In this document: piece by piece, positions 7,670 through 62,543 of the stretch
How the letters are laid out: every line of letters starts with the position of its first letter
Numbering within the stretch: the first letter of the stretch is position 1
Assembly (NCBI RefSeq): GCF_000246855.1
Contig: NC_016609.1
Coordinates: 5,406,744-5,470,743, forward strand
From: Niastella koreensis GR20-10
GTDB lineage: Bacteria > Bacteroidota > Bacteroidia > Chitinophagales > Chitinophagaceae
Length of the DNA: 64,000 bases
Direction: 5' to 3'
The notes under the pieces: model-generated
Told to the model about the DNA's origin: nothing
Seen by the model: the letters and a program-made list of their open reading frames with translations, nothing else
Database searches by the model: none
Made by a program: the position numbers and the translations under genes

Positions 7670-8464
7670 ATGGAATTAATCTTTCACAAATACCAGGGAA
7701 CTGGAAACGATTTTGTAATTCTGGACAACCGTGACGAACGTTATAATGGATTGACCAACGAACAGGTTCGCTTTTTGTGCAACCGCCGTTTTGGAATTGG
7801 CGCCGATGGACTTATGCTTTTAAATAATGCCAACGGGTACGATTTTGAAATGAAGTACTACAATGCCGATGGCCGCGAAAGTACCATGTGCGGCAATGGC
7901 GGCCGCTGCCTGGTTAAGTTTGCTTATAATATTGGCATTCGTAAAGATAAATACCACTTTATTGCTGTTGACGGGCCCCATGATGCCGAAATTGACGATG
8001 ACGGCATTGTTAGCCTTAAAATGAAAGATGTGGAGGAGATCAAAGACTTCCACAGCGATTTCATTTTAAACACCGGCTCGCCCCACTACATTAAAATGAC
8101 ACACAATGTGTGGGATTTTGATGTTTACAAAAAAGGGAAAGATATCCGCTACAGCAACACCTTCGCCAAAGATGGCATCAACGTAAATTTTGTTGAGCGC
8201 AAAAATAATGATGAAATAATAGTTCGTACCTACGAACGCGGGGTGGAAGATGAAACCCTTTCCTGCGGCACCGGTGTTACCGCCAGCGCCCTGGTATGTT
8301 ATCATAACGAACGGGGTTTCAACGAAGTAAAGGTTCAAACCAAGGGTGGAAGGCTATCCGTTGAATTCGACCGCACCGACGATGACGTTTATCGCAACAT
8401 CTGGTTATGCGGCCCGGCCGAGAAAGTTTTTGAAGGAAGTCTCTCAATAGCCAATGGCCAATAG
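7670..8464 (+). CDS. dapF: Diaminopimelate epimerase
   Basis: Converts LL- to meso-diaminopimelate for lysine and peptidoglycan synthesis. Both catalytic cysteines are present: Cys74 in STMCGNGGRC and Cys199 in LSCGTGVTASA. The N-terminal FHKYQGTGNDFVILDNR and RFGIGADGLM are diagnostic. The 264 residues are typical of the family, and the enzyme is cytoplasmic. The last residues (SLSIANGQ) and the stop codon are formed by the first copies of a CAATGGCCAATAGG-type repeat that continues into the intergenic space, so the repeat has become part of the protein's tail. Confidence 0.95.
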   Translation: MELIFHKYQGTGNDFVILDNRDERYNGLTNEQVRFLCNRRFGIGADGLMLLNNANGYDFEMKYYNADGRESTMCGNGGRCLVKFAYNIGIRKDKYHFIAVDGPHDAEIDDDGIVSLKMKDVEEIKDFHSDFILNTGSPHYIKMTHNVWDFDVYKKGKDIRYSNTFAKDGINVNFVERKNNDEIIVRTYERGVEDETLSCGTGVTASALVCYHNERGFNEVKVQTKGGRLSVEFDRTDDDVYRNIWLCGPAEKVFEGSLSIANGQ

Positions 8465-8500
8465 GCGATAGGCAAAGGCGATAGGCGATAGGCAAAGGGG
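8446..8500. repeat. Intergenic degenerate repeat (CCAATAGGCGATAGGCAA type)
   Basis: Short units of the form CAATGGCCAATAGG, GCGATAGGCAAAG and GCGATAGGCAAAGG follow one another, starting inside the last codons of dapF. They are one of several families of short-period intergenic repeats in this window. A palindromic AATTGGCAATTG stretch follows at 8540-8570. Confidence 0.75.
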
Positions 8501-8581
8501 ACTCGCGATTAATATGACAGACCGACATTCGGCAATCCTTGCCAATTGTAAATTGGCAATTGTCAATTGGTTTTTGTCAAT

Positions 8582-8589
8582 TACCTTTG
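8582..8589 (+). promoter_or_regulatory. Bacteroidota -7 promoter box (TACCTTTG) of corA-like gene
   Basis: TACCTTTG fits the TAnnTTTG consensus and lies seven bases before the ATG at 8597. It rules out the upstream TTG in the same frame (8567) as start. It implies a very short leader. Confidence 0.65.
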
Positions 8590-8596
8590 CGCGCCT

Positions 8597-9535
8597 ATGA
8601 TCCAGTACTTCAAAAATATTAATTATCAAACCGTAGCGATCGATAAGCCGGAAAACGGCTCCTGGGTGAACATTTTGCCACCATTGAGACAGGAGGAATT
8701 TTCTGAATTATCCAATTCGCTCGATATTCCCCTCGAATTCCTTACCGACTCGCTCGATATAGATGAAAGGACGCGTTTTGAGGAAGCTGATAATGTGAAG
8801 CTGCTGGTAATTAAAACCCCTACCGAAAACAACTCTTTTAACGATAGCGACGCGTTTTATATCACCATTCCGATCTGTATCATTATTACCCACAACCAGA
8901 TCGTAACGGTGAACTCCTTCGAGAACGGAGCTATCAAAAAGTTCCTGAACACCTTCCAGAACCGGCATCCCGATAACCGGAAGATGATGGTGCTGAAGAT
9001 CATTGAAAAGATCATTCAGACCTACCTCGAATCTTTGAAAGAGATCAATCAACGCAGAAATATCCTGGAGCAGAAGTTGTATGCAGCCAGCCGCAACGAG
9101 CACCTATTGCAATTGATGCGCATCCAGAAAAGTCTTGTATACTTTGTAACAGCCCTTCGCTCGAACGAAATGCTGTTGATGAAGATAGAGCGTACCAATT
9201 TTCTGGGTTTGAATGAAGATGAAAAAGAATTTCTGGGTGACCTTATCATCGATAACTCACAGGCGTTGGAAATGGCGAATATCTATACCAACATCCTGAG
9301 CAGTACGCTCGATGCATTCGCCAGCATTATTGCCAATAACCAGAATGAGGTGTTAAGACGTTTATCGGTTATCACCATCGTGCTGTCCCTGCCTGTGCTA
9401 GTAGCCAGTATTTACGGCATGAACGTACCTATCCCCTACGCACATTCGCCCTTTGCATTTTATATACCGGTATTTTTATCATTGGTGATCTCGTTAGTCA
9501 TTGGCTGGTTCTTTTTAAAGAAAAAGTTATTTTAA
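8597..9535 (+). CDS. corA: CorA-family divalent cation (Mg2+/Co2+) transporter, 312 aa
   Basis: An inner-membrane pentameric Mg2+ channel family. A long acidic cytoplasmic N-terminal domain (~250 residues) is followed by two C-terminal membrane helices (about residues 253-275 and 285-305). The loop between them carries the signature YGMN (in ASIYGMNVPIPYA). It ends with a basic tail (FLKKKLF). The ATG at 8597 is chosen because the promoter box ends eight bases before it. The NUDIX gene follows after two bases, so they are probably co-transcribed. Confidence 0.9.
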   Translation: MIQYFKNINYQTVAIDKPENGSWVNILPPLRQEEFSELSNSLDIPLEFLTDSLDIDERTRFEEADNVKLLVIKTPTENNSFNDSDAFYITIPICIIITHNQIVTVNSFENGAIKKFLNTFQNRHPDNRKMMVLKIIEKIIQTYLESLKEINQRRNILEQKLYAASRNEHLLQLMRIQKSLVYFVTALRSNEMLLMKIERTNFLGLNEDEKEFLGDLIIDNSQALEMANIYTNILSSTLDAFASIIANNQNEVLRRLSVITIVLSLPVLVASIYGMNVPIPYAHSPFAFYIPVFLSLVISLVIGWFFLKKKLF

Positions 9536-9537
9536 CC

Positions 9538-9993: not shown

Positions 9994-9994
9994 A

Positions 9995-18019: not shown

Positions 18020-19519
18020 ATGAATAAAGTATTACTATTCAACCCTAGAAGTGCAAGAACCAAACCCAGGATCCCCAATTCCATTCTTTCCGTAGCCGCC
18101 GTTATTGAAGGATTTTATGAGTATGCTATCGTTGATGGCAACCTGGAAACGGATCCCTGGACAAAAATAAACAGCTATCTGGCTACCGGTGAGTTCAAAT
18201 TCTTTGGCTGCACCTGTATGCCAGGGCCGCAATTGCGGCAAGCCATTCCCATTTCAAAGCAAATTCGGGAACAATATCCGGAGGTCAGGATCATCTGGGG
18301 TGGGTACTTTCCATCCAATCAACCCAAGGTGGTGCTGCACTCCGGTTTTGTAGATTTTATTGTAAACGGTCCGGGTGAAAAATGTTTTCCTGCACTGTTG
18401 AAAGCGCTGGAAACCGGCGACAACTGGACCACCATTCCCAATCTTATTTATAAAGGGGAACAGGGCATTGTTAAAACAGGTAAGGATGAGTTATACGACC
18501 AGGACGCGCTCCCTTCCCTGCCCTACGAAACGCTGAATAACTTTTACCCGTTAAAACGCTATTTAGGCAAAACCTACCTGGGCACCCGCACCATCGCCTA
18601 TCACAGCAGCATGGGCTGCCCCTTTAAGTGTTCTTTTTGTGCCGTGGTGCCCATTTACAATGCACGCTGGCGGGGTAAAAGTGCGCAACTGATTTATGAG
18701 GATATTAAATACCTGAAAGATCAACACGGGGGCAACGCCATCGAGTTCCACGACAACAACTTCTTTGTTTCGGAAAAACGTACGGTTGAGTTCTCTAAAC
18801 TCATTCAACCCGAAAATATGATCTGGTGGGGTGAAGGCAGAATTGATACCATTGATAAATACTCCGATAAATCGCTGGAGATAATGCGGGAATCGGGTTG
18901 CAAAATGATCTTCTTTGGCGCCGAAACCGGTAATGATGAAATTCTGGCAAAGATGGACAAAGGCGGTACGCAAAGCAGCGCCCAGATCAGGGCCTTTGCG
19001 GGGCGGATGGCCAAATTCGATATCATTCCTGAATACTCTTTTGTATTGGGCACTCCTGCCGATACCCCGGAGCAGGTAATGAAACAAATTGACCAGGATA
19101 TAGCTTTCATCAAAGAGATCAAAAGCATCAATCCTAAAACCGAAATTATTATTTATCTGTACAGCCCGGTGCCTACCGAGGGGTCTGACTTGTATAAGAA
19201 AGTACTGGAAAGCGGGTTTCATTTTCCGGAGAAGCTGGAAGACTGGATCAGCCCGCACTGGGAGAATTTTGATTTACGTAAGAACCCGCTAACGCCCTGG
19301 TTAACGCCCGAAATGATAGATAAGATCAAAGATTTTGAAACCGTACTGAACAGCTACTACCCTACTGTTTCCGACATCCGGTTATCGGCATTCAAACGCG
19401 GCATTATGCGCAGTCTGTCGGCAGTTAGATACAAAACCGGTTTATACTGGAAACCATATGAATTAAAAGTGTTGCAATTATTGTGGAAATACCGGCAACC
19501 TGAAATTGAAGGATTTTAA
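18020..19519 (+). CDS. B12-binding-type radical SAM protein, 499 aa (first of three)
   Basis: The N-terminal ~150 residues have the Rossmann-like cobalamin-binding layout (IIWGGYFPS at ~91-99, NGPGEKCFPALL). The radical SAM domain binds its cluster with Cys200, Cys204 and Cys207 (MGCPFKCSFC), followed by GAETGNDEILAKMDKG. The usual DxHxxG cobalamin-ligand motif is absent (VDGN instead), so B12 may be bound base-off or not at all. Relatives methylate or rearrange lipids and secondary metabolites. The reaction here is unknown. Confidence 0.85.
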   Translation: MNKVLLFNPRSARTKPRIPNSILSVAAVIEGFYEYAIVDGNLETDPWTKINSYLATGEFKFFGCTCMPGPQLRQAIPISKQIREQYPEVRIIWGGYFPSNQPKVVLHSGFVDFIVNGPGEKCFPALLKALETGDNWTTIPNLIYKGEQGIVKTGKDELYDQDALPSLPYETLNNFYPLKRYLGKTYLGTRTIAYHSSMGCPFKCSFCAVVPIYNARWRGKSAQLIYEDIKYLKDQHGGNAIEFHDNNFFVSEKRTVEFSKLIQPENMIWWGEGRIDTIDKYSDKSLEIMRESGCKMIFFGAETGNDEILAKMDKGGTQSSAQIRAFAGRMAKFDIIPEYSFVLGTPADTPEQVMKQIDQDIAFIKEIKSINPKTEIIIYLYSPVPTEGSDLYKKVLESGFHFPEKLEDWISPHWENFDLRKNPLTPWLTPEMIDKIKDFETVLNSYYPTVSDIRLSAFKRGIMRSLSAVRYKTGLYWKPYELKVLQLLWKYRQPEIEGF

Positions 19520-19521
19520 AA

Positions 19522-19602
19522 GTACAAAGTTGAAAGTTTAATGTTCAAAGGACCTTGAACTAAAAACTGTGAACTGAGAACTGTGAACTATAAACAAAGA
19601 TC
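19522..19602. repeat. Intergenic degenerate repeat (GAACTGTGAAC type)
   Basis: Units such as AAAGTTGAAAGTTTAATG, GAACTAAAAACTGTGAACTG and AGAACTGTGAACTATAAAC run directly up to the start codon of the next gene. No coding capacity is evident. Confidence 0.7.
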
Positions 19603-21343: not shown

Positions 21344-21442
21344 AGTTCTTAAGTTATTGAGTTCTTAGTTGGGAAACTAATAAACTCACGAACTAAAGAA
21401 CCTAAGAACTAAAGAACTAAAGAACTAAAGAACTAAGCGACA
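21344..21442. repeat. Intergenic degenerate repeat (AAGAACTAAAGAACT type)
   Basis: Four to five tandem units of AAGAACTAAAGAACT, preceded by AAGTTCTTAAGTTATTGAG and GTTCTTAGTTGGGAAAC, end two or three bases before the ATG of the next radical SAM gene. The left half is the inverted form of the right half, so it can fold as a long imperfect hairpin. Confidence 0.75.
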
Positions 21443-23710: not shown

Positions 23711-25113
23711 GGATCCTGCTAACACATGGATATTTTATAGAAGAAGATCCCAAGGAACAAGCCATTATGCGGCCCTATGTTCCATTGGGAATCCTGTATA
23801 TTTCCGCTTACCTGGAACAGAATGGCTACGATAACGTGGTATTCGACAGTACTTTTTCTTCCTTCTCTAAATTGTGTGCACAGCTGCAAGAGCAACGTCC
23901 TGATGTGGTGGGTATTTATACCAACCTGATGACGAAGCTGAATGTACTGCGCATTATTACTTATATAAAAAGCCAGCCTGAATTACAACATACCAGAATT
24001 GTGCTGGGTGGCCCGGAGGTAAGGAACCATGCTATTAAGTTCCTGGAACATGGCGCCGATTTTATTGCATCGGGAGAAGGGGAACAAACCATGCTGGAGC
24101 TGGTTCAGTTTGTGGAGGGCACGTTTACCGGTACGCTTACAGATATCGAAGGCGTATCCTTTCTTGACCCCGAAAAAGGATTACAGCAGAATAAAGAACG
24201 CACCAAGGTAAAGAACCTCGATGTATTGCCCATGCCTAACCGCCGTAAAGTAAACCTGTCGCTATACTTTGATGCCTGGAAAGGACGTCATGGCACCAGT
24301 ACCGTTTCCATCAGCACCATGCGGGGTTGCCCATACAGCTGTAAATGGTGCAGCCGCGCCGTTTACGGACAAAGCTACCGGCGCCGGACTCCGGCCAAAG
24401 TGGCTGATGAAATTGAGTACATAAAAACAAATTACAATGTAGACAGCCTGTGGTTTGTTGATGATGTATTTACCGTAAGCCATCAATGGCTGGAACAGTT
24501 TACCAACGAAATGACCAGCCGTAACCTGGTTACGCCTTTTGAATGTATTACGCGGGCCGATAGGATGAATGAAGAAGTGATCATCAATTTAAAAAAGAGT
24601 GGCTGTTTTCGGGTATGGATAGGTGCGGAAAGTGGTTCCCAAAAGATAATTGATTTGATGGACCGGCGTGTGGAAGTGGAACAGGTTCAACAAATGATCC
24701 AACTGGCCCGCAAACATGGCATGCAGGCAGGCACCTTTATTATGGTAGGCTATCCCGGCGAAACCAAGGAAGACATCTACGCCACTGTACAACATTTAAA
24801 GAATGCCGATCCCGACCTGTTTACTATTACAGTCGCCTACCCCATTAAAGGAACGCCTTTATATGCCGAGGTGGAAGACCGCTTTGTAACCAACCTGCCC
24901 TGGGAAAGCAGCACCGACCGCGATATTGATTTTGCCAGAACGTATAACAGGAAGTACTACGACTATGCCATTCAAATGATCAATTACGAAGTGAATTATC
25001 ACAAAGCATTAAAAAAACCTGTAGCCAATTTATTTAAGCTGACCAAGCTGAAATTGCGTTCGACCTTAGCCAAGGGGCATATGTGGATGGAGGAAAGAAG
25101 AAAAGCAGTTTAG
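23707..25113 (+). CDS. B12-binding-type radical SAM protein, 468 aa (third)
   Basis: The N-terminal domain has the cobalamin-binding arrangement (VVGIYTNLMTKLN, IVLGGPEVRNHAIKFLEHGA, ASGEGEQTMLELV), again without the ligand His (FDSTFS). The cluster ligands are Cys208, Cys212 and Cys215 (RGCPYSCKWC), followed by FVDDVFTV and WIGAESGSQKIIDLMDRR. It is a paralogue of the 21445-22908 product (same length scale, same motif spacing), suggesting two related steps in one pathway. The gene ends eight bases before a perfect 14-bp inverted repeat. Confidence 0.88.
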   Translation: MRILLTHGYFIEEDPKEQAIMRPYVPLGILYISAYLEQNGYDNVVFDSTFSSFSKLCAQLQEQRPDVVGIYTNLMTKLNVLRIITYIKSQPELQHTRIVLGGPEVRNHAIKFLEHGADFIASGEGEQTMLELVQFVEGTFTGTLTDIEGVSFLDPEKGLQQNKERTKVKNLDVLPMPNRRKVNLSLYFDAWKGRHGTSTVSISTMRGCPYSCKWCSRAVYGQSYRRRTPAKVADEIEYIKTNYNVDSLWFVDDVFTVSHQWLEQFTNEMTSRNLVTPFECITRADRMNEEVIINLKKSGCFRVWIGAESGSQKIIDLMDRRVEVEQVQQMIQLARKHGMQAGTFIMVGYPGETKEDIYATVQHLKNADPDLFTITVAYPIKGTPLYAEVEDRFVTNLPWESSTDRDIDFARTYNRKYYDYAIQMINYEVNYHKALKKPVANLFKLTKLKLRSTLAKGHMWMEERRKAV

Positions 25114-25158
25114 TTAACACGTTGACAAGTTAACGTGTTAACATGTTAACTTGTCAAC
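25114..25158. repeat. Perfect 14-bp inverted repeat between convergent genes (GTTGACAAGTTAAC type)
   Basis: GTTGACAAGTTAAC at 25121-25134 and its exact reverse complement at 25145-25158 flank a 10-base loop. It sits between the convergent radical SAM and nucleotidyltransferase-like genes. It may act as a bidirectional transcription end, but there is no T-run. The same units recur elsewhere in the window in direct form. Confidence 0.8.
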
Positions 25159-26062
25159 TATGAACTACCTGTGCTGTCTGAAGCTTTTTATTTAAAGCAT
25201 CAAGTACCTTTCTTTGGAAAAATTCAGGATTGGGTTTAGAAAAATGCTTCCCGGTATGCAACCCCATACGAATGCCGTGCGAGTTGATTTTCTTCAATTG
25301 TTCTTTCTTTAACCAGCGGCGGGTGGTAACACGCATGAGCCAGTTATCCAAACTATTTCCTACCTTATTATCGAGCAACCATTCTACGGCTCTTTTCAAC
25401 CTGCCCGGTTTTGCCAACAGGATCGATTCTTTATTCACCGGTTGATTGGGAAAATAGCTGCCTGCCCAATTGTTTTGATCGTAAAACCGGTCCATAGTGC
25501 CATTACCGCAAACCGGTTTCAGGGTAATCAATTCTGTAGCGGTAAATATATTTTGCTCATCGATGCGTAATGCTTCCTCATCGATATAATAATTCATGCA
25601 ATATAAATGCTGGTGCCCTGTAATAAATGTCAGTTTCTTGAACAAATGCATCAGGGTACGGGCAAGCCATAGTCTGTTTGCCTGCGTTATAATAAAATAA
25701 TCTATATCGGTATTTTGATCGGCAAAGTTTTTGGATAATGATCCGGAGATGCCGATGCCCCGCACAAAGGGAAACTGGTATAAAAATCCGCCAACTTTAT
25801 ATCCGGTAGTCAACAATATGCCGGCTTTATGGTTACCATTAGTTCTTCTTGCACGTAAAGAGGGATCCTGCTGCAGGGAATAGAAACTTCCCATGCGAAA
25901 CACCCGGTTATCATCAACCAGTTGTTGCAGAGTTAACAATACATCATCCCTTGAAACGGTTTGATCGAGAAAATGATGTATTTCGTCCAGTGTAAGCGGA
26001 TAATTAAAGATATCAAAATAAGCTAACGCCTTTATGATACTTTGCTCGTGTTGTACAGCCAT
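25154..26062 (-). CDS. Winged-helix plus nucleotidyltransferase-like protein, 302 aa
   Basis: Residues ~1-75 look like a winged-helix domain (IIKALAYFDIFNYPLTLDEI... MGSFYSLQQ). Residues ~98-120 carry a nucleotidyltransferase-like core: GIGISGSLSKNFADQNTDID followed by YFII, i.e. GS-x(n)-DxD, the metal-binding pattern of minimal nucleotidyltransferases. The rest is helical and basic. I do not know a characterised member. Its place beside radical SAM and sugar transferase genes suggests a part in the same pathway. The 3' end lies in the inverted repeat. Confidence 0.65.
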   Translation of the reverse strand: MAVQHEQSIIKALAYFDIFNYPLTLDEIHHFLDQTVSRDDVLLTLQQLVDDNRVFRMGSFYSLQQDPSLRARRTNGNHKAGILLTTGYKVGGFLYQFPFVRGIGISGSLSKNFADQNTDIDYFIITQANRLWLARTLMHLFKKLTFITGHQHLYCMNYYIDEEALRIDEQNIFTATELITLKPVCGNGTMDRFYDQNNWAGSYFPNQPVNKESILLAKPGRLKRAVEWLLDNKVGNSLDNWLMRVTTRRWLKKEQLKKINSHGIRMGLHTGKHFSKPNPEFFQRKVLDALNKKLQTAQVVHS

Positions 26063-26128: not shown

Positions 26129-26929
26129 ATGATTCGTGAAAAAAGGTTGCCTTTGTTGAAAAGGACCGTCCTTCGGAAGTTTATTGATGGCAAAAGAGGT
26201 TATTTCCTCTGCAAACGGATACTTGATGTATTGTTTGCATCGGTAGTTATAATAACCGTGTTGAGTTGGTTATTGCCATTGCTGGCTTTGTTGATAAAAC
26301 TAAGCTCAAAAGGGCCCGTGTTCTTTTTACAAAAACGTACCGGTCGTGGGGGAAAATCGTTTACCTGTTACAAATTACGCACCCTGGCGCATAACCCCGT
26401 AGCCCATACTAAACACATGGATGTAGGGGAGGAAACAGCAACGGCGCTGGGGCGGTTCCTCCGGCAATCAAACCTCGATGAATTGCCCCAGTTTTTTAAT
26501 GTACTGGCCGGCAGTATGAGCCTGGTTGGTCCCCGCCCACACATGCATGCCGATTGCAATGAATTTGCCAGGCTTATTCCCCGATACAAATTCCGCAACC
26601 TGGTAAAACCGGGCATAACCGGACTGGCCCAGGTAAAAGGCTATCATGGAAAGGTGATTAGCCGGGAGTGTATATATATAAGGTATAAATGGGATGTCTG
26701 GTATGTACAATATGCCGGCTTTTGGCTGGATGTTAAAATTATTGCCATTACCGCCGGGCAAACTGTGCTGGCGGTGTTGGGAAAGAAAAAGCCTAAACGT
26801 CCCGCCCCGGTTCGGACTATAAGCTTCAAGCCGCAAGCCACAAGCAAAAAGCCGAAAGCCATAAATCCCAGGCCTAAAGCGGAAGCAAACAAAGAACTGA
26901 GCACTAAGAACTCAGAACTAAAAACCTAA
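26129..26929 (+). CDS. Bacterial sugar transferase (undecaprenyl-phosphate sugar-1-phosphate transferase type), 266 aa
   Basis: A monotopic initiating phosphoglycosyltransferase that loads the first sugar phosphate onto undecaprenyl phosphate at the inner membrane. A membrane helix lies at ~33-58. The family core follows: KGPVFFLQKRTGRGGKSFTC then YKLRT, LRQSNLDELPQFFNVLAGSM, SLVGPRPH, and KPGITGLAQVKGYHG. Residues ~229-266 are a Lys/Pro/Ser-rich tail encoded by the AAGCCGCAAGC and GAACT repeat family and are probably not part of the ancestral protein. It likely initiates the glycan of this locus. Confidence 0.9.
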   Translation: MIREKRLPLLKRTVLRKFIDGKRGYFLCKRILDVLFASVVIITVLSWLLPLLALLIKLSSKGPVFFLQKRTGRGGKSFTCYKLRTLAHNPVAHTKHMDVGEETATALGRFLRQSNLDELPQFFNVLAGSMSLVGPRPHMHADCNEFARLIPRYKFRNLVKPGITGLAQVKGYHGKVISRECIYIRYKWDVWYVQYAGFWLDVKIIAITAGQTVLAVLGKKKPKRPAPVRTISFKPQATSKKPKAINPRPKAEANKELSTKNSELKT

Positions 26930-26930
26930 A
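26820..26930. repeat. Degenerate repeat inside the 3' end of the sugar transferase gene
   Basis: The units AGCTTCAAGCCGCAAGCC, ACAAGCAAAAAGCCGAAAGC, and GAACTGAGCACTAAGAACTC plus AGAACTAAAAACC fill the last ~110 bases of the open frame and include its stop codon. The same units occur in non-coding positions elsewhere. Confidence 0.8.
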
Positions 26931-27051
26931 ACTCACCCTTTTACAGTAATTTTGTATTAAAACAAGGGGATTTCAAATGGCATTCTGAACATATACCATA
27001 TGTTTTTGGTATTTTTTTGCATTTAGCTTTACCTGTTTGCCTGAGAATCCC

Positions 27052-34800: not shown

Positions 34801-34803
34801 AAT

Positions 34804-37794: not shown

Positions 37795-37850
37795 TGAAAG
37801 GCAAGTTGAAAAGTTGACAAGTTAACAGGTTGACAAGGAAAATACATTAA
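37795..37850. repeat. Intergenic degenerate repeat (AAGTTGACAAGTTAACAG type)
   Basis: GCAAGTTGAAAAGTTGACAA followed by GTTAACAGGTTGACAAGG sits between the convergent thioredoxin-like and membrane-methyltransferase-like genes. Confidence 0.7.
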
Positions 37851-38454: not shown

Positions 38455-38578
38455 GAAACAGCCTCAAGCTGCAATCCCGAACTAACAAACTTAATAACCC
38501 ACGAACCTAAGAACTTAAACTTAGAATCGAGAACAAAGAACTTGGAACTCCGAACTTGGAACTTGAAACTTGGAACCA
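38455..38578. repeat. Intergenic degenerate repeat (GAACTTGGAACTTGAAAC type)
   Basis: A run of ~10 GAACTTGGAACT-like units (for example CGAACTTGGAACTTGAAACT) ends directly at the TATCTTTG promoter box of the ABC-F gene. One of the clearest members of the family. Confidence 0.85.
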
Positions 38579-40472: not shown

Positions 40473-40473
40473 T

Positions 40474-40530
40474 TGATCAGTTGACGGGTTGACAGGTTAA
40501 CAAGTTGACAAGGGTTTAAAGTGATAGACT
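40474..40530. repeat. Intergenic degenerate repeat (GTTGACGGGTTGACAGG type)
   Basis: GTTGATCAGTTGACGGGTTG then ACAGGTTAACAAGTTGACAA, directly after the ABC-F stop codon. Confidence 0.75.
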
Positions 40531-40645
40531 GAGGTCGAACGAGGGCGGTTGATAATGTTGACAGAGTTGCCCACTGCCTTTCCACCATTAAAAATTCACG
40601 TTCACCATTCAACCAAGTATTCTTTCTAATCAAATCCCTCTCAAT

Positions 40646-42212: not shown

Positions 42213-42265
42213 CAATAGACAATTGGCAATGGGCAATAGGCAATCGGAGTTTGCTTATTGCCCAT
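42213..42265. repeat. Degenerate repeat with 10-bp hairpin between convergent genes
   Basis: AATCAATAGACAATTGGCAA then TGGGCAATAGGCAATCGG. ATGGGCAATA at 42229-42238 pairs exactly with TATTGCCCAT at 42256-42265. It lies between convergent genes and is followed by a T-rich stretch on the plus strand, so it may end transcription. Confidence 0.75.
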
Positions 42266-43239: not shown

Positions 43240-43475
43240 AAAACAGCTGCAAGCTTCAAGCCGCAAGCCGCAAGCAAATACAGGCCGAAAGCCGAAAGCC
43301 AAAAGCTGAAAGCACTACACCGCTGCACTGAAAACAACCGCAAGCTTCAAACTTTAAGCCATAAGCAATACACTGCTGCGCGTCAATCATCTTCACGGCA
43401 AACCGCGAAACGGGTAACCGGAAACCGGTGACCGGTAACCTGCAACTTGAAACCTGGAACCTGGAACTAATAACT
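43240..43475. repeat. Large composite degenerate repeat (AAGCCGCAAGC, GGTAACCGG and GGAACCTGG blocks)
   Basis: Three blocks in order: AAGC-type (GCTTCAAGCCGCAAGCCGC), then a GC-rich block CGGGTAACCGGAAACCGG, then GGAACCTGGAACTAATAAC. Bases 43388-43439 are repeated, 52 of 52 identical, in inverted orientation at 46446-46497, and the flanking blocks also match in order. No coding value is evident. Confidence 0.9.
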
Positions 43476-46402: not shown

Positions 46403-46590
46403 GTTCCAATTTATTGAGTTCCAGATTCCGGGTTCCAAGTTGCATGTTACCGGTCACCGGTTTCCGGTTACCCGTTTCGCGGTTTGCCGTGAAGATGGTT
46501 GCACGCAGCGGTGTGTTGCTTACAGCTTATAGCTTATGGCTTTCAGCCTGTATTTGCTTGCAGCTGGCAGCCTGAATCTTCGGCTCTCTA
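46395..46590. repeat. Composite degenerate repeat, inverted partner of 43240-43475
   Basis: Read on the minus strand it repeats the block order of the 43240-43475 element: AAGCAAATACAGGCTGAAAG, then CACACCGCTGC, then the identical 52-base block (46446-46497), then CAACTTGGAACCC. The two copies are inverted and ~3 kb apart, with the MFS, DUF4197, thioesterase and small hypothetical genes between them. Confidence 0.9.
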
Positions 46591-49959: not shown

Positions 49960-50128
49960 TGAAAAGCTGACCAGTTAACCAGGAAGAAGGGTTGATAGTG
50001 TTGATAACGTTGATATAGGTTGACGGGTTAACAAGTTGACAGGTTAACAGGTTGAATTTTATCGCGAGGCTGTATTGCTCCCCCTGAAGGCCGCGTCACG
50101 GTTTGCGGTTTGCCGTTTGCCGATTCAC
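49960..50128. repeat. Intergenic degenerate repeats (GTTGACGGGTTAACAAG and CGGTTTGCGG types)
   Basis: The first part (to ~50055) consists of GTTGATAACGTTGATATAGG, TTGACGGGTTAACAAGTTGA and CAGGTTAACAGGTTGA. The second part (50093-50125), CACGGTTTGCGGTTTGCCG, resembles the inner block of the 46395-46590 element. Confidence 0.8.
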
Positions 50129-50160
50129 GAAAAAAGACCACCTGAAAAACAGATGGTCCT
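50129..50160 (-). terminator. Intrinsic terminator after the glucan phosphorylase gene
   Basis: Minus strand AGGACCATCTG and CAGGTGGTC form an imperfect stem followed by TTTTTTCG. Confidence 0.8.
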
Positions 50161-53919: not shown

Positions 53920-55798
53920 AATTAAGGGGGAAGCCTCGTTAAGTGATGTACACGAAAGCGTTGATGTATCCCGGAAAAAAATTGGCTGGAAAAAGGCGCT
54001 TGCATTTTTTGGCCCCGCTTACCTCGTTAGTGTAGGATATATGGATCCCGGCAACTGGGCAACCGACCTGGCCGGCGGCAGCCAGTTTGGCTACTCGCTC
54101 CTTTGGGTGTTGTTAATGAGTAACCTGATGGCGTTGTTACTGCAAGGCCTCTCCGCCCGCCTGGGTATTGTGCGTGGGCGCGACCTGGCGCAGGCTAACC
54201 GCGAAGCGTACGCCCGTCCCGTAAACTTAATGCTGTATGTGCTGGCTGAAATTGCCATTGCCGCCTGCGACCTGGCCGAAGTGCTGGGAATGGCCATTGG
54301 GATACAATTGCTCACCGGCCTGCCATTGATCTGGGGGGTAGCAATAACGGTGTTCGATACCATTTTACTGTTGTTATTACAAAAGCTGGGCATTCGCAAA
54401 ATGGAAGCCTTTATAATCGGGCTGATCGCCATCATTGGATTATCGTTCCTTGTGGAGATCCTTATTGCCAGTCCCGCGCCTGCAGCAATAGCAACGGGTT
54501 TCATTCCCCGTTTTGTGAATGATAATGCCCTGTACATTGCTATTGGCATCATCGGCGCCACGGTAATGCCGCATAATTTATACCTGCATTCCGCCCTGGT
54601 GCAAACCCGTAAGATCAACAGAACAAGAGAAGGCATTAAGCAGGCGTTAAAATTCAACTTTATTGATTCAACCATTGCCCTCAACCTCGCCTTCCTGGTA
54701 AATGCAGCCATTTTGATTTTGGCCGCCAAAGTATTTTTTGAAGTAGGCTACACCAATGTGGCTGAAATAAAAGATGCGCACCGGTTGCTGGATGAATTGC
54801 TGGGCAAGAACAACAAATTAGCCCCCATCTTATTTGCACTGGCGCTCATCGCGGCCGGACAAAGCTCAACAGTAACCGGAACACTGGCGGGGCAGATAGT
54901 AATGGAAGGCTACCTGCGCCTGCGCATCAACCCGTGGATGCGGCGGTTGCTCACCCGGTTATTGGCTATTATTCCTGCTATACTGGTAATTGCCATTGCG
55001 GGTGAACATGAGGTGGACAGCCTGCTGGTGCTAAGCCAGGTTATTTTAAGTATGCAGCTGGGTTTTGCCATTATTCCGCTGATCCATTTTGTAAGCGATA
55101 AAAAAACAATGGGCGAATTTGCCATCAAACCCTATGTACAGTTTGTTGCCTGGGTAGTGACCGCAATCCTGGTATACCTGAACATTCGCATGGTGCTTAA
55201 CGAAGCCGGTAAAGTGTTTTCGCAATCAGGTAACCTTGGCTGGGAAATATTGATCATTGTGGGCGGGGCGGCATTTCTCGGTTTGCTGGGGTACATTATC
55301 TTCCATCCCATCATTAATAAAAGAGCAAAGGAAACCTCTATTACCATACACCCGCACCTGGAAGGATTACAACAATTGACCATTCCCGCTTATAAAAAGA
55401 TTGCAGTAGCGCTGGATTTTGGTAAACACGACAATACCTTACTGGCGCATGCCATTGGGCAGGGCCAGGGCAATGCAGAATACCTGCTGATACACGTGGT
55501 GGAAAGCGCCTCGGCACGTTTGCTGGGCAAGGAAAGCGATGATTACGAAACGCAGCACGATGAAGCCCGTTTACAATTGTATGTACAACAATTACACGAA
55601 CAGGGGTTAACCGCCACCTGTCAGTTGGGTTTCCGGCACCGCTCCGAAGAAATAATACGCATCATCAACGAAGCCCAGGCCGATATGTTAGTCATTGGCG
55701 CGCACAGGCATAGCGGGTTGAAAGATTGGTTGTATGGGGAAACGATAAACTCTGTTAGACATGAGTTGAAGATTCCGATACTGGTAGTTAACTTATAA
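53909..55798 (+). CDS. mntH: NRAMP metal transporter fused to a USP domain, 629 aa
   Basis: A Mn2+/Fe2+ importer of the inner membrane with ~11 helices. The metal-site motifs are present: MDPGNWATDLAG (DPGN in TM1) and MPHNLYLHSALV (MPH in TM6). After the last helix, residues ~490-629 form a universal-stress-like nucleotide-binding domain (KKIAVALDFGKHDNTLLAHA, VIGAHRHSGLKDWLYGETIN). The gene shares 11 bases with the upstream DtxR-type regulator, so metal-controlled co-expression is expected. Confidence 0.93.
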   Translation: MMTRIKGEASLSDVHESVDVSRKKIGWKKALAFFGPAYLVSVGYMDPGNWATDLAGGSQFGYSLLWVLLMSNLMALLLQGLSARLGIVRGRDLAQANREAYARPVNLMLYVLAEIAIAACDLAEVLGMAIGIQLLTGLPLIWGVAITVFDTILLLLLQKLGIRKMEAFIIGLIAIIGLSFLVEILIASPAPAAIATGFIPRFVNDNALYIAIGIIGATVMPHNLYLHSALVQTRKINRTREGIKQALKFNFIDSTIALNLAFLVNAAILILAAKVFFEVGYTNVAEIKDAHRLLDELLGKNNKLAPILFALALIAAGQSSTVTGTLAGQIVMEGYLRLRINPWMRRLLTRLLAIIPAILVIAIAGEHEVDSLLVLSQVILSMQLGFAIIPLIHFVSDKKTMGEFAIKPYVQFVAWVVTAILVYLNIRMVLNEAGKVFSQSGNLGWEILIIVGGAAFLGLLGYIIFHPIINKRAKETSITIHPHLEGLQQLTIPAYKKIAVALDFGKHDNTLLAHAIGQGQGNAEYLLIHVVESASARLLGKESDDYETQHDEARLQLYVQQLHEQGLTATCQLGFRHRSEEIIRIINEAQADMLVIGAHRHSGLKDWLYGETINSVRHELKIPILVVNL

Positions 55799-55969
55799 GT
55801 TCAGAGTTCAGGGTTCCGAGTTCCGAGTTCAGAGTTCCGAGTTCAGAGTTCCTAGTTCAGGGTTCCGAGTTCAGAGTTCAGAGTTCCGAGTTCAGAGTTC
55901 CGAGTTCAGAGTTTCGAGTTCAGAGTTCCGAGTTTAAGAAACCTGGAACTTGGAACCTGGAACTCGGAA
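55799..55969. repeat. Large degenerate tandem repeat (GAGTTCAGAGTTCCGA type), foldback
   Basis: About a dozen copies of a ~14-base unit GAGTTCAGAGTTCC run from 55800 to ~55930. They are followed by the opposite orientation (CCTGGAACTTGGAACCTGGA then ACTCGGAACT), so AGTTCCGAGTT pairs with AACTCGGAACT. The element fills the space between the convergent NRAMP and Crp/Fnr genes. Confidence 0.9.
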
Positions 55970-56581
55970 CTATTTCTTCTGTAGCAACAGATGCTTCAAC
56001 CTACTAAAAGTTTCCGGCTTAATATTAAGGTAACTGGCTAAAACTTTCTGCGGAACTCTTTGTAACATATGCGGGTGATTATTCATATAATCTATAAAGC
56101 GATCGCGGGTGGAGGTAAGTAACTGATCAAAATAGCGGGCGTCTTTTTTAATGAACATTTCCATGATGATGATGCGGCCCAGGTTTTCCGCTTCGGGAAA
56201 TTTATTCATGGCCTCGTTCATACGATCGTGGTGGATAGATACCAGCACGGTAGGCTCCAGGGTTTGAATAACCACTTCAGAAGGCACCCGGTGGTGGAAA
56301 GATATTTCAGATTGGATAAAATGCCCTTCGGTGGCCAGTTGCAGGGTTACTTCGCCCCTGATGGAAGAAGGGATATATTTGCGAACGAGGCCCTTTATTA
56401 CCACATTCAGGTAGTCCTCCATTTCGCCCTGGTTTACCAGTTTTCTTTTTTTATCAAATTGGCGGATCTCCAGATAAGGTATCAATTGTTCCATCCCTTC
56501 GCGGCTCACACTTGAAAACCGCTGCAGGTATCCCAGTAGCAGTTCATAACATTCCCGGGCAACAATGTTTTTATCCCCCAT
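55970..56581 (-). CDS. Crp/Fnr-family regulator, 203 aa
   Basis: An N-terminal cyclic-nucleotide-binding-like barrel (KKRKLVNQGEMEDYLNVVIK) and a C-terminal winged helix ([20 protein letters not shown] then LKHLLLQKK). No Fnr-type cysteines are present. The effector is unknown. Its C-terminus is nearly identical to that of the neighbouring Crp/Fnr gene, so these are tandem paralogues. The two genes are nine bases apart on the same strand. Confidence 0.88.
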   Translation of the reverse strand: MGDKNIVARECYELLLGYLQRFSSVSREGMEQLIPYLEIRQFDKKRKLVNQGEMEDYLNVVIKGLVRKYIPSSIRGEVTLQLATEGHFIQSEISFHHRVPSEVVIQTLEPTVLVSIHHDRMNEAMNKFPEAENLGRIIIMEMFIKKDARYFDQLLTSTRDRFIDYMNNHPHMLQRVPQKVLASYLNIKPETFSRLKHLLLQKK

Positions 56582-56590
56582 AAATTTTTA

Positions 56591-58693: not shown

Positions 58694-59428
58694 TTTTGCC
58701 CCCAAAATCCACGCTCATGGTTTTTGGGGATTTTTTTTTTCGCCCAAAAAAGAAGGCCCTCCCGAACAGACGGGAAGACCTTTTGTGATGATAATACCCC
58801 TTAACTTACCTATTTTAATCAGTTCCGAGTTCCAAGTTCAGAGTTCTTTGTTGCCGCGCCCTCGTTGCCTTGATGCCTTGTTCCCTCGTTGCCTAGACTA
58901 CATCAATTATGCCCGGCGCCCCTCATTACCGTAGAATTACTGTTAACAAAACCATAAAGGTCTCCTCCCATGGCTGGAACCGGGAGAAGACCAGTAATGA
59001 TTGATTAAACCCTAAACTATGTACAGAAAAGATGCAGGAACCACTTGTTTGCTTAGCGGTTAATCATCACCTTGTTATACAGGGTCGATGATCTATTTTA
59101 ATTGACAGGCCACGCAATAAATCCGTTGCGCCCTCAGTTTAGTAAGAGTGTTAAAGATTCAATAATGTATGTGAAAACATCGAAGCATGCGGGAGAAGCG
59201 GTGTGATTTTTTCTTAAGTTACACCTTGAATGCCAATGTAAAAGGTAGTCAAAAACACGGGCTTAAACATTACGGTAAAAAATATTTTGCCAATAGTTTT
59301 AAAAGCCCGAACGTTAAAGACGGAATGTGAAAAATACTATTCCAGTATAAAAATTTTCTTGCCAGGGGAACGCCTATGTACACGTGAAGGATTAAACAAA
59401 AGTACGGCCGGCGTTCCTATTTTATTTT

Positions 59429-59467: not shown

Positions 59468-59469
59468 CA

Positions 59470-59517
59470 TTATCGAATTATCGAATTATCACATTAGCAA
59501 ATTATCACATTAGCTAA
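59470..59517. repeat. Short intergenic repeat (AATTATCACATTAGC type)
   Basis: ATTATCGAATTATCGAATTA then TCACATTAGCAAATTATCAC ends at the stop codon of the hexosaminidase gene. A different unit from the GAAC family, but the same arrangement. Confidence 0.7.
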
Positions 59518-61434
59518 TTATTTCTTCTTGTCAGCCCTGGCTTTGAGGGTCGCTACCGGCATAGTTATCATGCGGCCGATAGGGTTTTTACCTCTGTAAG
59601 TTATTACCCGCATGGTGCTTGCATCTTTAGGCACCAGCACCGGCTGGGTGTATTTGGGGTAGAACCGGTCGGGGAATGAATTATCAAAACTGTAATAAAT
59701 ATCCAGTCCTTCTATTTCGGTGCTCAGGTCTACTTTCAGCAAATCGCCCTCCTTGCTCACATCAAAAATAGGATCATACATACTGGGCGCGTATTTGATC
59801 TCGGCTTCATCAAAACGGCCAAAATGATCTTCAACCCGGCGTATAAAGTCGTTCCAGTTCTTTTTGTCGGCGGGCGTCCAAACACACTCAGCCACCGCAA
59901 AAGCGCGGGGCCAGGTCATATATTGCGCATGACGCATATTGTAGACCTGTTCTGTCCACAGGTTGGCCTGTCCACCCTTAATGTATTTCGGATCCGCGCC
60001 TTCAGGAACCGGCTCAAAAGCATAGCTGCTTTTTAACCGTACGGTTTTATACACGGGAGGCTCAATGGCGCCATCGCCCTGCATCAGGTCGATGTAAACA
60101 TTATTATTAGGGCTCATCACTACATCATGCTGCATTTTGGCTGCTTCTGCCCCACCCGAAGAACCACGCCAGCTCATTACAGCTGCATTGGGGGCCAGAC
60201 CGCCTTCCAGGATCTCATCCCAGCCAATCAGTTTTTTTCCTTTCGATTCAATGATCTTTTCTACCCGTTTTACAAAATAGCTTTGCACCTCATGCATGTC
60301 TTTCAACCCCTCTTTTTGCATCAGTTGTTTTATGGCGTCGCTTTTCTCCCAGAAGTTCTTGGCGCACTCATCACCACCCATATGAATGTATTCAAAGGGG
60401 AACAGCTGCGCGATTTCGCCAAACACTTTATCCAGCAATTCATATACTTTATCATTGGCGGGGCACAGGGTATTATCAACCAGGGCAGAAAAAGTACCAT
60501 CGCCCCACTGCATAAATTTTTCGCCGGCGCTAACGTGGTAAGTTCCCGGTGTACACGACAATTCAGGATAGCTGGCTACCGCAGCCATGCTGTGACCGGG
60601 CACGTCTACTTCGGGCAAAATATTCACAAATCGGTCAGCCGCATATTTTATCAGCTCCTTAATATCATCCTGCGTATAAAACCCGCCATAGGTGCGCGGC
60701 TCATTTTCTGCCGGTGGTGTTAACGTGCCGAATGTACCGGTTCTGTCTACGCGCCAGGCGCCCACCTCGGTTAATTTAGGCAGCGATTTTATTTCAATGC
60801 GCCAGCCCTGGTCGTCGGTAAGGTGCAGGTGCAATAAGTTGTATTTATACTTCACCATATCATCTATATACTCTTTCACCTGTTCTTTGGTAAAGAAGTG
60901 ACGCACCACATCAAACATCAAACCGCGCCAGGCAAAACGCGGGTAATCCATAATATGTACCCCGGGAATAACCCAGTTGGTTTTCTTTACCACTGTTTTG
61001 CTTTCAATTTCTTTGGGCAGCAGCTGAACTAAAGTTTGCATCCCATAAAACAACCCGGCCGGGTCGTTGGCAGAAACCCGCACCCCGGCGGCTGTTACGT
61101 CAATCGTATAACCTTCTTTTCCTATATTTTTATCGGCCGTGTGGTTCAGAGTAAAACTGATTATATTGCTTTTAACTGCCGGCGCCGCCTGCGCCATCGT
61201 AAAACCGGAGGCCTTTTTTACCTGGCTGCTAAAATAACCGGCAACACGTTGCACATCGGCATTTTTAGCATCCGCCACTATTTTGGTTTGATTATTAAGC
61301 ACAAAACGGGCGGTCTTTTTTTCAAGGGAAACCGGCTGCGGAATAATGGAGATGTCTGAAGTGGTTTGAGATACGGCTACAGCAACCATCCAGAAACTGG
61401 CAAATAACAAGCTGAGTGATTTCATTTTAGGCAT
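59518..61434 (-). CDS. Beta-N-acetylhexosaminidase (GH20), 638 aa
   Basis: The signal peptide ends near AVSQ. An N-terminal GH20b domain (~30-155) is followed by the GH20 barrel: PRFAWRGLMFDVVRHFFTKE, HLHLTDDQGWRIEIKSLPKL, DVPGHSMAAVASYPEL and YIHMGGDECAKNFW with the catalytic Asp356-Glu357 pair. A small C-terminal beta domain (FDNSFPDRFYPKYTQPV) closes it. It removes GlcNAc from chitin or host/cell-wall glycans outside the cytoplasm. An internal ATG at 61425 is an alternative start. Confidence 0.93.
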   Translation of the reverse strand: MPKMKSLSLLFASFWMVAVAVSQTTSDISIIPQPVSLEKKTARFVLNNQTKIVADAKNADVQRVAGYFSSQVKKASGFTMAQAAPAVKSNIISFTLNHTADKNIGKEGYTIDVTAAGVRVSANDPAGLFYGMQTLVQLLPKEIESKTVVKKTNWVIPGVHIMDYPRFAWRGLMFDVVRHFFTKEQVKEYIDDMVKYKYNLLHLHLTDDQGWRIEIKSLPKLTEVGAWRVDRTGTFGTLTPPAENEPRTYGGFYTQDDIKELIKYAADRFVNILPEVDVPGHSMAAVASYPELSCTPGTYHVSAGEKFMQWGDGTFSALVDNTLCPANDKVYELLDKVFGEIAQLFPFEYIHMGGDECAKNFWEKSDAIKQLMQKEGLKDMHEVQSYFVKRVEKIIESKGKKLIGWDEILEGGLAPNAAVMSWRGSSGGAEAAKMQHDVVMSPNNNVYIDLMQGDGAIEPPVYKTVRLKSSYAFEPVPEGADPKYIKGGQANLWTEQVYNMRHAQYMTWPRAFAVAECVWTPADKKNWNDFIRRVEDHFGRFDEAEIKYAPSMYDPIFDVSKEGDLLKVDLSTEIEGLDIYYSFDNSFPDRFYPKYTQPVLVPKDASTMRVITYRGKNPIGRMITMPVATLKARADKKK

Positions 61435-61565
61435 TTAATTATAGATGACTATTTTTAAAATTAAGGGAATTTCGCCGCTCCCTTAGCAGAAAATTAATGC
61501 AAACGATTGATCCTCTTTATGGAATGATCATTAATTTGTAACTTCCCAAAAACAATCAAATACAC

Positions 61566-62396
61566 ATGAAGAAACTGCTTGTACCGACTGACTTCTCCGA
61601 CACATCAAAGAACGCAGCTATGTTTGCTGCGCAAATGGCCGCAGACATTCAAAACGCCAAGATTATATTAATTCATGTGTCTGATAAGATCACAGGTGGC
61701 TCAGACGGTTCACCGCTGACTGAAGATGATGATGACCGCCGGGTTATATTATCTCAGGCGCTGGACCAGTTAAAAGAAGAACTGTTGGCCGTAGCACCAA
61801 CGGCGCCCATTGAGTTTGCAATGGAAAAAGGTTCATCCCTGGTGGAGACCTTAACGCGCTATGTTCGCCATCAGGCTATTGACATGGTAGTGATGGGTAT
61901 TACCGGCGCAACCCGCCTCGAACAGATCTTTATGGGCAGCAACACCCTCGATATGGCCAAGGAAGGGGTTTGCCCGGTATTGATCATTCCGCCTGATGCA
62001 AAATACCGCACTATTAAAAACGTGGTACTGGCCAGCGACTTTAAAGAAGTAGATGTTACCATTCCGGTGGCTCCGCTGAAGGCTACGCTCGACCTGTTTA
62101 AACCAGCCCTGCATATTGTGAATGTGGACAGCGAACACTATGTAGAGCTGACCGATGAATACAAGGCAGAAAGAAAAAAACTGGAAACCATGCTCAAGGA
62201 TTATAAACCTGAGTTCTCTTTCATCAGGCAGTATGATTTCTTTGACGCCATCAGCCAGTTCGTGGAAGATAGAAATATCGATCTGATCTTTATTATCCCA
62301 AAAGACCGGTCATTTGTACCCAGTCTGTTCAAAACCAGCCATACAAAAAGACTGGCCTATCACAGCCACGTTCCTATTGTAGCGATACACGAATAA
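61566..62396 (+). CDS. Universal stress protein, two-domain, 276 aa
   Basis: Two USP-like Rossmann domains in one chain. The first (~1-145) carries the ATP-binding VVMGITGATRLEQIFMGSNT motif. The second (~150-276, VVLASDFKEVDVTIPVAPLK) is divergent, with LIFIIPKDRSFVPSLFKTSH in place of the nucleotide motif. Two-domain forms are common in Bacteroidota. Cytoplasmic; role in stress response is inferred. Confidence 0.9.
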   Translation: MKKLLVPTDFSDTSKNAAMFAAQMAADIQNAKIILIHVSDKITGGSDGSPLTEDDDDRRVILSQALDQLKEELLAVAPTAPIEFAMEKGSSLVETLTRYVRHQAIDMVVMGITGATRLEQIFMGSNTLDMAKEGVCPVLIIPPDAKYRTIKNVVLASDFKEVDVTIPVAPLKATLDLFKPALHIVNVDSEHYVELTDEYKAERKKLETMLKDYKPEFSFIRQYDFFDAISQFVEDRNIDLIFIIPKDRSFVPSLFKTSHTKRLAYHSHVPIVAIHE

Positions 62397-62416
62397 AGTG
62401 AGTTTACATTATATTA

Positions 62417-62447
62417 AAAGGCGTAATCATCAGATTGCGCCTTTTTT
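62417..62447 (+). terminator. Intrinsic terminator after the USP gene
   Basis: AAAAGGCGTAATC and GATTGCGCCTTTT form an 11-12-pair stem with a short loop and T-run. Confidence 0.88.
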
Positions 62448-62454
62448 GAATAAA

Positions 62455-62543
62455 AAAGCTGCAAGCTGTAAGCCATAGGCAATACACCCCAGCGCGGCAC
62501 CCGGGAACCCGAAACTCTGAACCTGGAACTCTGAACTAATAAA
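62455..62543. repeat. Intergenic degenerate repeat (GAACCTGGAACTCTGAAC type)
   Basis: An AAGCTGCAAGCTGTAAGCC block, then ACCCGGGAACCCGAAACTCT and GAACCTGGAACTCTGAACTA. It ends one or two bases before the LysR gene start and follows the block order of the 43240-43475 element. Confidence 0.85.

Follow-up and report, generated by a model that had tools for sequence, protein, structure and literature searches.

Short degenerate repeats lie between the genes of a 64,000-nucleotide stretch of Niastella koreensis GR20-10 (contig NC_016609.1, positions 5,406,744 to 5,470,743; hereafter the window), and these intergenic arrays are real. They form several classes of units with a kept core and free bases, have a polarity relative to gene edges, occur in excess as inverted pairs, favour the 3' side of genes, lie in gaps that are short of terminators, and are exchanged for arrays of other classes at matching gaps. 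We propose, with a probability of about 0.45, that they are slippage-tolerant hairpins which would serve gene 3' ends in both directions, with a habit like that of repetitive extragenic palindromic (REP) elements, and which would spread by copying; the function in RNA, the slippage and the copying route are what we infer beyond these observations.

The sample consisted of 864 kb of the genome (9,033,684 bases, one contig), that is, the window and 40 further stretches, with 143 kb of intergenic DNA as delimited by gene calls from a simple hexamer model (coding fraction 0.83). Three of the extra stretches were picked for earlier unit-pattern matches, and the block at 1.0-1.2 Mb also contained visible matches; once the three chosen stretches were dropped, 193 arrays were left in 804 kb (184 in a second count). 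Arrays were located without any motif, by self-match at a lag of 7 or 8 bases with a score of at least 10 or at least 11, and 10 dinucleotide shuffles of the intergenic DNA served as the null model. Intergenic self-match was 3.2-3.6 times that of the shuffles at lags 7, 14 and 21, falling from 3.6 to 1.95 times over lags 7 to 35 (7, 14, 21, 28, 35), and 1.75 to 1.5 times at lags 8, 16 and 24. With a score of at least 11, the intergenic DNA contained 131 arrays at lag 7 versus 0.2 when shuffled, 51 versus 0.8 at lag 8, 16 versus 1.0 at lag 9, 8 versus 0.4 at lag 11, and 0 versus 0.6 at lag 10. A different type of repeat, formed by the motifs GTTCGCAAC and CGAACTTTGACGCGTAAGTAG in the gap at 6060-6400, might account for part of the lag-11 excess. 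Outside the chosen stretches, 168 arrays out of 184 were intergenic, and over the whole genome GAACTNNGAACTNNGAACT gave 291 matches versus 4 with the reversed pattern.

An earlier note on this DNA had described a genome-wide family of composite, degenerate intergenic repeats, with at least seventeen stretches in the window. The sampled 864 kb support such a family, strongly so in the comparison with shuffled intergenic sequence, which was run in part. The window contained 25 arrays with a score of at least 10, which merged at 200 bp into 17 separate stretches, in line with the number in the note; one array, 26900-26932, lay mostly inside the end of a called open reading frame (ORF). All ten of the stretches that had been named overlapped arrays found without a motif; the named stretch 62455-62543 was only half covered, by an array at 62456-62484 to which TRF added 62505-62536. 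The short units listed in the note correspond to the classes GAACTNN, GTTRACNN, HAAGCYN, AACYGGN and CAATNRR. Among Rfam 15 families, only tRNA reached the gathering score in the window. The array stretches were as follows.

8445-8493, plus strand: 7-base array of CAATAGG type, overlapping the 3' end of a diaminopimelate-epimerase-like gene (7670-8464).
8539-8569, minus strand: 7-base array of CAATTGN type, a weak inverted partner of 8445-8493 (inverted 0.74 versus direct 0.68).
19519-19595, plus strand: two 7-base arrays, AAGTTNA then AACTGTG, weakly inverted (0.67), 3' of the gene at 18020-19519.
21374-21436, plus strand: 8-base array of AACTAAAG/AACYTAAN; an ATG at 21445 lies 8 bases on.
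25113-25159, minus strand: GTTRACNN 8-base hairpin, filling a 40-base convergent gap.
26827-26932, plus strand: AAGC block then AACT block, mostly within the 3' end of the called ORF 26279-26929.
34719-34808, plus strand: AACTNNG 7-base array, reaching the start of the gene at 34804-35451.
37803-37835, plus strand: GTTRACNN 8-base array in a convergent gap.
38455-38578, plus strand: by eye, an AAGC remnant plus 8-mers resembling AACYTAA; next, an AACTNNG array (38523-38576) that adjoins a TATCTTTG promoter-like box.
40471-40565, plus strand: GTTRACNN 8-mers, then AAGGGTTTAAAGTGA, then GTTGAYRGN 9-mers, a recurrent order.
42213-42247, plus strand: CAATNGG 7-base array in a convergent gap.
43245-43467, plus strand: composite of two AAGC/AAAGC blocks, a spacer, and AACYGG then AACCTGG blocks.
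46411-46542, minus strand: second copy of the 43245-43467 composite, with 125 bases at 89% identity to 43349-43473.
49991-50130, plus strand: GTTGAYRGN 9-mers, GTTRACNN 8-mers, then an AACGGCA array on the opposite strand.
55798-55934, minus strand: long AACTCNG array (AGTTC on the plus strand), beginning at the stop codon of an Nramp-like gene.
55940-55971, plus strand: AACTTGG array that pairs in inverted orientation (0.81) with 55798-55934 and extends to the stop of the opposing gene.
58821-58894, minus strand: AACTCGG 7-base and AGGCAACG 8-base arrays.
59469-59520, minus strand: AATKNGMT 8-base array, ending at the stop of the gene at 59518-61434.
62456-62536, plus strand: AAGC block, GC-rich spacer and AACYC/GAACT block upstream of the gene at 62545-63453.

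About 16 overlapping motif classes were distinguished by consensus, and every unit combined an invariant core with free bases (GAACTNN, AAGCYN, GTTRACNN, AATKNGMT and others). In AACT arrays, AAC differed in 3-7% of unit pairs and the following four bases in 31-46%; in GTTGAC 8-mers, the G, T, T and A differed in 0-2%, the C in 26%, and the R position and the last two bases in 41-56%. An expression search for each of the 16 classes gave 8 to 45 matches for 13 of them, versus 0 to 3 in reversed sequence; two were weak (GAATRT, 12 versus 7; AAWCGKS, 9 versus 4) and one was rare (AATGAR, 3 versus 0). These counts include some doubles, since some classes are near-alike (AAAGC and HAAGCY; AACT, AACYGG and AACCTGG) and 15 of the 265 class labels share more than half their length with a neighbour. 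Copies are dispersed: the AAGC block at 43240-43314 had relatives elsewhere in the genome that were up to 91% identical over 75 bases, the whole query giving 44 matches, itself included. In a related genome (G005:C198:279013-279530), seven consecutive matches to this block were spaced by 75 bases, a higher-order expansion.

An invariant core every 7-8 bases could also be expected if the arrays offered many landing sites to a protein that binds DNA or RNA (Csp, Rho or a nucleoid protein), and protein binding has been proposed for TAACTGA repeats in the excerpted text of PMC4679880. Many of the roughly 16 cores are unrelated, however, and the A-rich strand is unbiased in tandem gaps (7-mers, 38 same versus 39 opposite; 8-mers, 17 versus 13), which makes this explanation very improbable. 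In tandem gaps, the idea of a strand preference with respect to transcription was discarded, as there was none overall for the A-rich strand; the bias is instead relative to the interior of the gap.

This orientation was examined with a rule in which the direction of each class, read inward from the gene edge, was set by the majority in the N. koreensis genome and then frozen for three relatives. Within 25 bp of a stop codon, 92 of 95 labels followed the direction of their class in N. koreensis, a count that flatters the rule because the direction was set by majority there; the proportion was 15 of 17 at the same distance from start codons and 52 of 61 farther from starts. Under the frozen rule, the labels of the relatives that lay within 25 bp of a gene edge agreed in 44 of 45 cases (stops, 37 of 38; starts, 7 of 7), and those farther from starts in 23 of 25, some of these being matching loci and hence not fully independent.

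Periods of 7 and 8 place a stop triplet in all three frames, so that the arrays could be banks of backup stop codons. The sense strand 3' of stops did carry 271 stop triplets in 107 labelled arrays, versus 196 in mononucleotide shuffles and 149 on the antisense strand. The classes disagreed, however: the large AACT class showed the opposite (15 sense versus 39 antisense) and AACYTAA was even (29 versus 33). Moreover, arrays at start codons keep the polarity seen at stops (15 of 17 in N. koreensis, 7 of 7 in the relatives). This explanation was rejected; it is largely refuted and barely credible.

Arrays frequently faced each other. Among 65 neighbouring pairs of the same period, 36 were inverted, 10 direct and 19 unrelated, and the three relatives gave 16, 8 and 9, respectively. 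Against 300 label shuffles, which were the null for order and polarity, same-class pairs were in excess for AACYTAA8 (minus/plus, 7 versus 0.23), AATKNGMT8 (plus/minus, 5 versus 0.08) and AAAGC (plus/minus, 4 versus 0.19). An inverted-repeat score of at least 20 was reached in 34% of the 44 convergent gaps with arrays (5% of the 38 without), in 21% of the 66 tandem gaps (2% of 196 without) and in 16% of the 19 divergent gaps (2% of 80 without), and never in 3 shuffles of each gap. Median z values for RNA folding were -2.3 (n = 56) versus -1.0 (n = 136) in tandem gaps with and without arrays, and -4.6 (n = 34) versus -3.5 (n = 26) in convergent gaps. Recent palindromic duplication, or selection for full complementarity of the arms, was unsupported, as unit order was unmatched (2 of 34 pairs with p ≤ 0.1).

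The earlier note had also proposed a fixed order of blocks. GTTRAC8 was indeed followed by GTTGAYR9 nine times versus 0.40 expected, and all 5 labelled pairs had AAGC before AAC, although these pairs derive from just 3 loci, double labels included; yet the reverse of the first order also occurred 3 times versus 0.37. The block order of the composite in the 43240-43314 region recurs elsewhere in the genome. The two best copies in the window, 43349-43473 and 46411-46535, on opposite strands, are 89% identical over 125 bases and therefore represent one local duplication. Composite repeats with a recurrent block order were borne out; a single composite element at different stages of decay conflicts with the roughly 16 classes, the inverted polarised arms and the frequent presence of another class in the gaps of relatives, and was rejected, as classes are exchanged at matching gaps.

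The 3' side of genes was preferred. With the chosen stretches excluded, arrays occurred in 40 of 86 convergent gaps, 59 of 272 tandem gaps and 17 of 101 divergent gaps (convergent versus either, p about 1e-5); for gaps of 60-300 bases, the figures were 29 of 53, 48 of 174 and 10 of 56, respectively. In tandem gaps of at least 80 bases, 44 of 100 arrays lay within the first fifth, 3' of the upstream stop. Arrays had been said to stop often by a start codon; 11 of 100 arrays in tandem gaps did lie within 15 bp of one, but stop codons were the commoner neighbour (37 of 100).

Gaps with arrays were poorer in terminator-like sites (a stem followed by a T tail), despite their greater length. In N. 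koreensis, such sites were found in 7 of 38 convergent gaps with arrays versus 17 of 38 without (p = 0.025) and in 3 of 63 versus 32 of 187 tandem gaps (p = 0.012); in the relatives, the counts were 2 of 23 versus 8 of 19 (p = 0.026) and 3 of 43 versus 20 of 124 (p = 0.20), respectively. Pooled odds ratios were 0.26 and 0.27 (N. koreensis and relatives), or 0.32 and 0.45 within gaps of 80-300 bases. In divergent gaps, the sites occurred in 0 of 18 versus 4 of 68 (N. koreensis) and 2 of 11 versus 2 of 44 (relatives). The arrays are thus not themselves intrinsic terminators with a GC-rich stem and a T run, such sites being rarer in array gaps. A one-for-one swap of array and terminator was not seen either: where only one species had an array, the partner gap held a terminator-like site in 2 of 17 cases. 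At L018:6871-6975 and L031:5315-5400, an inner stem-loop of type ACAGCTCACGTGAGTGCTTCGCGTGAGCTGT comes after the AATKNGMT array; in the one AATKNGMT case tried (L031, 5200-5500), the terminator scan called no terminator.

Matching gaps of related species showed that arrays change quickly. In the gap at 55799-55969, N. koreensis has AGTTCNN 7-mers, G003 and G005 (related genomes, here given by handle) have GTTTATG/GTTTATT 7-mers, G006 and G007 have TCAGTTAT-like 8-mers, G001 has a 5-base gap, and G004 and G009 have no array at the threshold. N. koreensis and G009 share 85.9% nucleotide identity (window match); of their 118 gaps, 77 were array-free, 15 had an array only in N. koreensis, 4 only in G009, and 22 in both (8.2 expected if independent), with the same class in 11 of these and a different class in 11. 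For G006 and G007 (85.1%), 67 gaps comprised 43 without arrays, 3 and 5 with an array in a single species, and 16 with arrays in both (6.0 expected), of which 14 had the same class and 2 a different one. A random pair of arrays would agree in class with a probability of 0.16, or higher where a gap holds several arrays. Between matching arrays, changes affected 53 of 497 core, 34 of 155 semi-fixed and 145 of 510 free sites. Shorter gaps without arrays, which may or may not be empty sites like those of miniature inverted-repeat transposable elements (MITE), were also present in relatives. The comparison with relatives, run in part, thus did not reveal these positions as conserved unique sequence. 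Finally, the 3' end (26800-26932) of ORF 26279-26929 is made of AAGC and AACT arrays; its tblastn matches ended about 40 residues early in G004 and G001, and were nearly full to the end in G002, G003, G005, G006, G007 and G009.

We propose that these features belong to dispersed intergenic hairpins whose arms would consist of degenerate 7- or 8-base units, with the core kept and the other bases free. Since each unit keeps its core and varies elsewhere, an arm may gain or lose whole units by slippage and still pair through the cores that remain; this would account for a constant core and polarity alongside an unmatched unit order. One arm would sit at one edge of the gap with an inverted arm facing it, so that each class is read on the same strand inward from the gene edge, as observed. 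In RNA, such long imperfect stems may stop or trim transcripts, or shield the 3' end of the mRNA, and could make ordinary intrinsic terminators dispensable. Arrays would be copied from gap to gap, and a gap could exchange one class for another because layout, rather than sequence, is kept.

Several observations weigh against this proposal. The terminator comparison in tandem gaps of the relatives, one of the four 3'-side comparisons, was not significant alone (p = 0.20), the trend was reversed in their divergent gaps (2 of 11 versus 2 of 44), and the rate of 2 of 17 in partner gaps was no higher than in array-free gaps overall. Polarity was weak more than 25 bp from a stop (47 of 74 in N. koreensis, 11 of 20 in the relatives), where inner arms may face the opposite way. 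Most array gaps had an inverted-repeat score below 20, and the arms of the 34 inverted pairs did not match unit by unit (median p = 0.61). Array-free convergent gaps were well folded too, and two composites folded alone were only mildly stable (z = -1.7). Moreover, the substitution test is biased towards its result, as the 31 of 34 rows counted were chosen as periodic and mask-fitting, some loosely.

The main rival is that the arrays are neutral or selfish slippage satellites, 7-8-base expansions arising and spreading wherever they are harmless, mostly 3' of stops, with the layout a by-product of hairpin-prone replication errors. It would suit the avoidance of divergent gaps and coding DNA, the differing unit order of the arms, the fast change of lengths and classes, and the loss of arrays without a matching terminator in the partner species (2 of 17); slippage favouring 7-mers is, moreover, a published idea (PMC4679880 and PMC4692102, in the excerpts used). 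It fits less well with a polarity that stayed fixed in genomes other than the one used to set the rule (44 of 45 no farther than 25 bp from a gene edge) and with the different constancy of core and free positions. Nor does permissiveness alone predict fewer intrinsic terminators in array gaps, although loss of terminators by insertion could explain them. We regard this rival as plausible but doubtful.

Triple GAACTNN units were present in 13 of the 59 genomes searched, namely all ten of the genus (N. koreensis included), with 1 to 465 matches per genome, and three others with one match each. Five AACNNNN units occurred in 166 of 296 Bacteroidota genomes, and the reversed pattern also in many; in our reading, this control also catches real CAA-phased arrays and is not a clean null. 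Among the matches listed for four GTTRACNN units were Niastella species, Longitalea luteola, Prevotella, Bacteroides, Parabacteroides and Phocaeicola, as well as some records of Planctomycetota, Patescibacteria and Proteobacteria; 13 example matches among those listed consisted of 8-mers, degenerate or plain, and some had a partner in inverted orientation. Twenty stretches from other genera (about 334 kb, two N runs excluded) contained 9 period-7 arrays with a score of at least 11, versus 159 in the 864 kb of N. koreensis. It is possible, if somewhat unlikely, that the arrays represent a kind of 3'-end element that is widespread in Bacteroidota: selection would keep a polarised, core-paired architecture of 7/8-base periodic arms, the sequence class would be freely exchangeable, and the resulting slippage-tolerant, self-renewing gene ends would make classical terminators dispensable.

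REP elements and bacterial interspersed mosaic elements (BIME), associated with REP-associated tyrosine transposases (RAYT), are dispersed imperfect palindromes that favour gene 3' ends. The arrays resemble them in being dispersed, in forming imperfect palindromes and in their 3'-end habit; they differ in having no fixed palindrome and arms made of degenerate tandem units. Y1 enzymes act on hairpins, and the arrays might be REP-like elements mobilised by a conserved Y1 (IS200-like) transposase of an aromatic-pathway cluster. Each of the nine genus genomes searched (G000-G008) has one strong Y1 gene (81.8 bits in Pfam, cut-off 23), and the gap upstream of it contains, by eye, GTSAATSG-like heptad arms at 9 of 9 genus loci. 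The IS200-like protein has 142 residues (L163:1430-1850, minus strand; G000:C1:5622944-5623369), and in G001 its gene lies, according to Pfam, between those for 3-deoxy-D-arabino-heptulosonate 7-phosphate synthase/chorismate mutase and dehydroquinate synthase. Against such a mover, the G001 protein passed the IS200 model but scored 22.5 bits with the NCBIfam model REP_Tyr_transpos (cut-off 80), on which ground RAYT membership was rejected; among 28 loci in other genera that carry relatives of the Y1 gene, 3 had an array within 100 bp; and about 16 unit classes are hard to reconcile with a single recognition hairpin. The REP score concerns the G001 protein only, and N. koreensis has a second, weaker Y1 match. 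Mobilisation by this enzyme is quite improbable, and the transposase looks domesticated. Several Y1 homologues in other genera of Chitinophagaceae have look-alike flanks, as judged by eye.

With tandem units of 5-11 bases above chance and mainly intergenic, the arrays recall heptanucleotide simple sequence repeats, described as short tandemly repeated repetitive sequences (STRR), a name reportedly due to Mazel in 1990, or as long simple sequence repeats (LSSR); their units are not near-identical, however, as about 30-68% of the unit pairs of an array disagree at a free position. STRR and LSSR (Calothrix heptamers; Mrazek 2007, via PMC4692102 and PMC4679880) share a heptanucleotide excess in bacterial genomes with the arrays, but no hairpin layout, polarity or block order is described for them in those excerpts. 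The 72-base tandem repeat at 32201-32493 (4.1 copies, within ORF 31896-33368) has no relation to the intergenic arrays. A 2025 survey (PMC12699852, in its excerpted part) reported 6-9-base repeats to be enriched in prokaryotic phyla.

The earlier note knew of no described element with this structure; part of it has been described before. The excerpted text of Rehm et al. 2015 (PMC4692102) describes heptamers near stop codons, GGGANTN in Xanthomonas and GGGGA(C/T)T in Nostoc, for which no role was found. Like the arrays, they have core and free positions, are intergenic and under-represented between divergent genes, and have a preferred strand close 3' of stop codons; opposite-orientation pairs are common in Xanthomonas (70 and 75 cases), and 83% recurred beside the corresponding genes of a second species, with differing lengths. 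A preferred strand 3' of stops and inverted pairs were likewise found here. They differ in consisting of one G-rich, quadruplex-capable motif, versus about 16 classes with periods of 7, 8 and 9 and no GGG in any class core, and in lying between convergent genes in 16% of cases; class exchange at matching gaps and a shortage of terminators do not appear in the excerpted text. MacGregor 2015 (PMC4679880, likewise excerpted) described TAACTGA direct repeats in Beggiatoaceae, Cyanobacteria and five Bacteroidetes, which resemble the arrays in their 7-base unit with AACTGA, intergenic position and copies in sets, and some Bacteroidetes gaps hold further heptamers. That repeat is one exact heptamer, mostly forward and just 5' of starts, with related heptamers rarely repeated, whereas the arrays comprise many degenerate classes, mostly 3' of stops (37 versus 11 at starts per 100) and often inverted. 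No paper dealing with these arrays in Niastella, as judged by title and the opening of the abstract, was found in the open literature, which is weak evidence of novelty, subscription journals and preprints lying beyond that coverage. Within it, the polarity rule and class exchange appear to be new, the nearest known systems being the Xanthomonas/Nostoc heptamers and the TAACTGA repeats.

There is no agreed role for the heptamer repeats known from several bacteria. The arrays of N. koreensis bring an orientation rule that is predictive in other species, a shortage of terminators and an exchange of classes at constant sites, which makes function testable. If the arrays do end transcripts, the prediction of gene ends in part of the Bacteroidota would need a new model, and they would show clearly that selection can act on layout instead of sequence.

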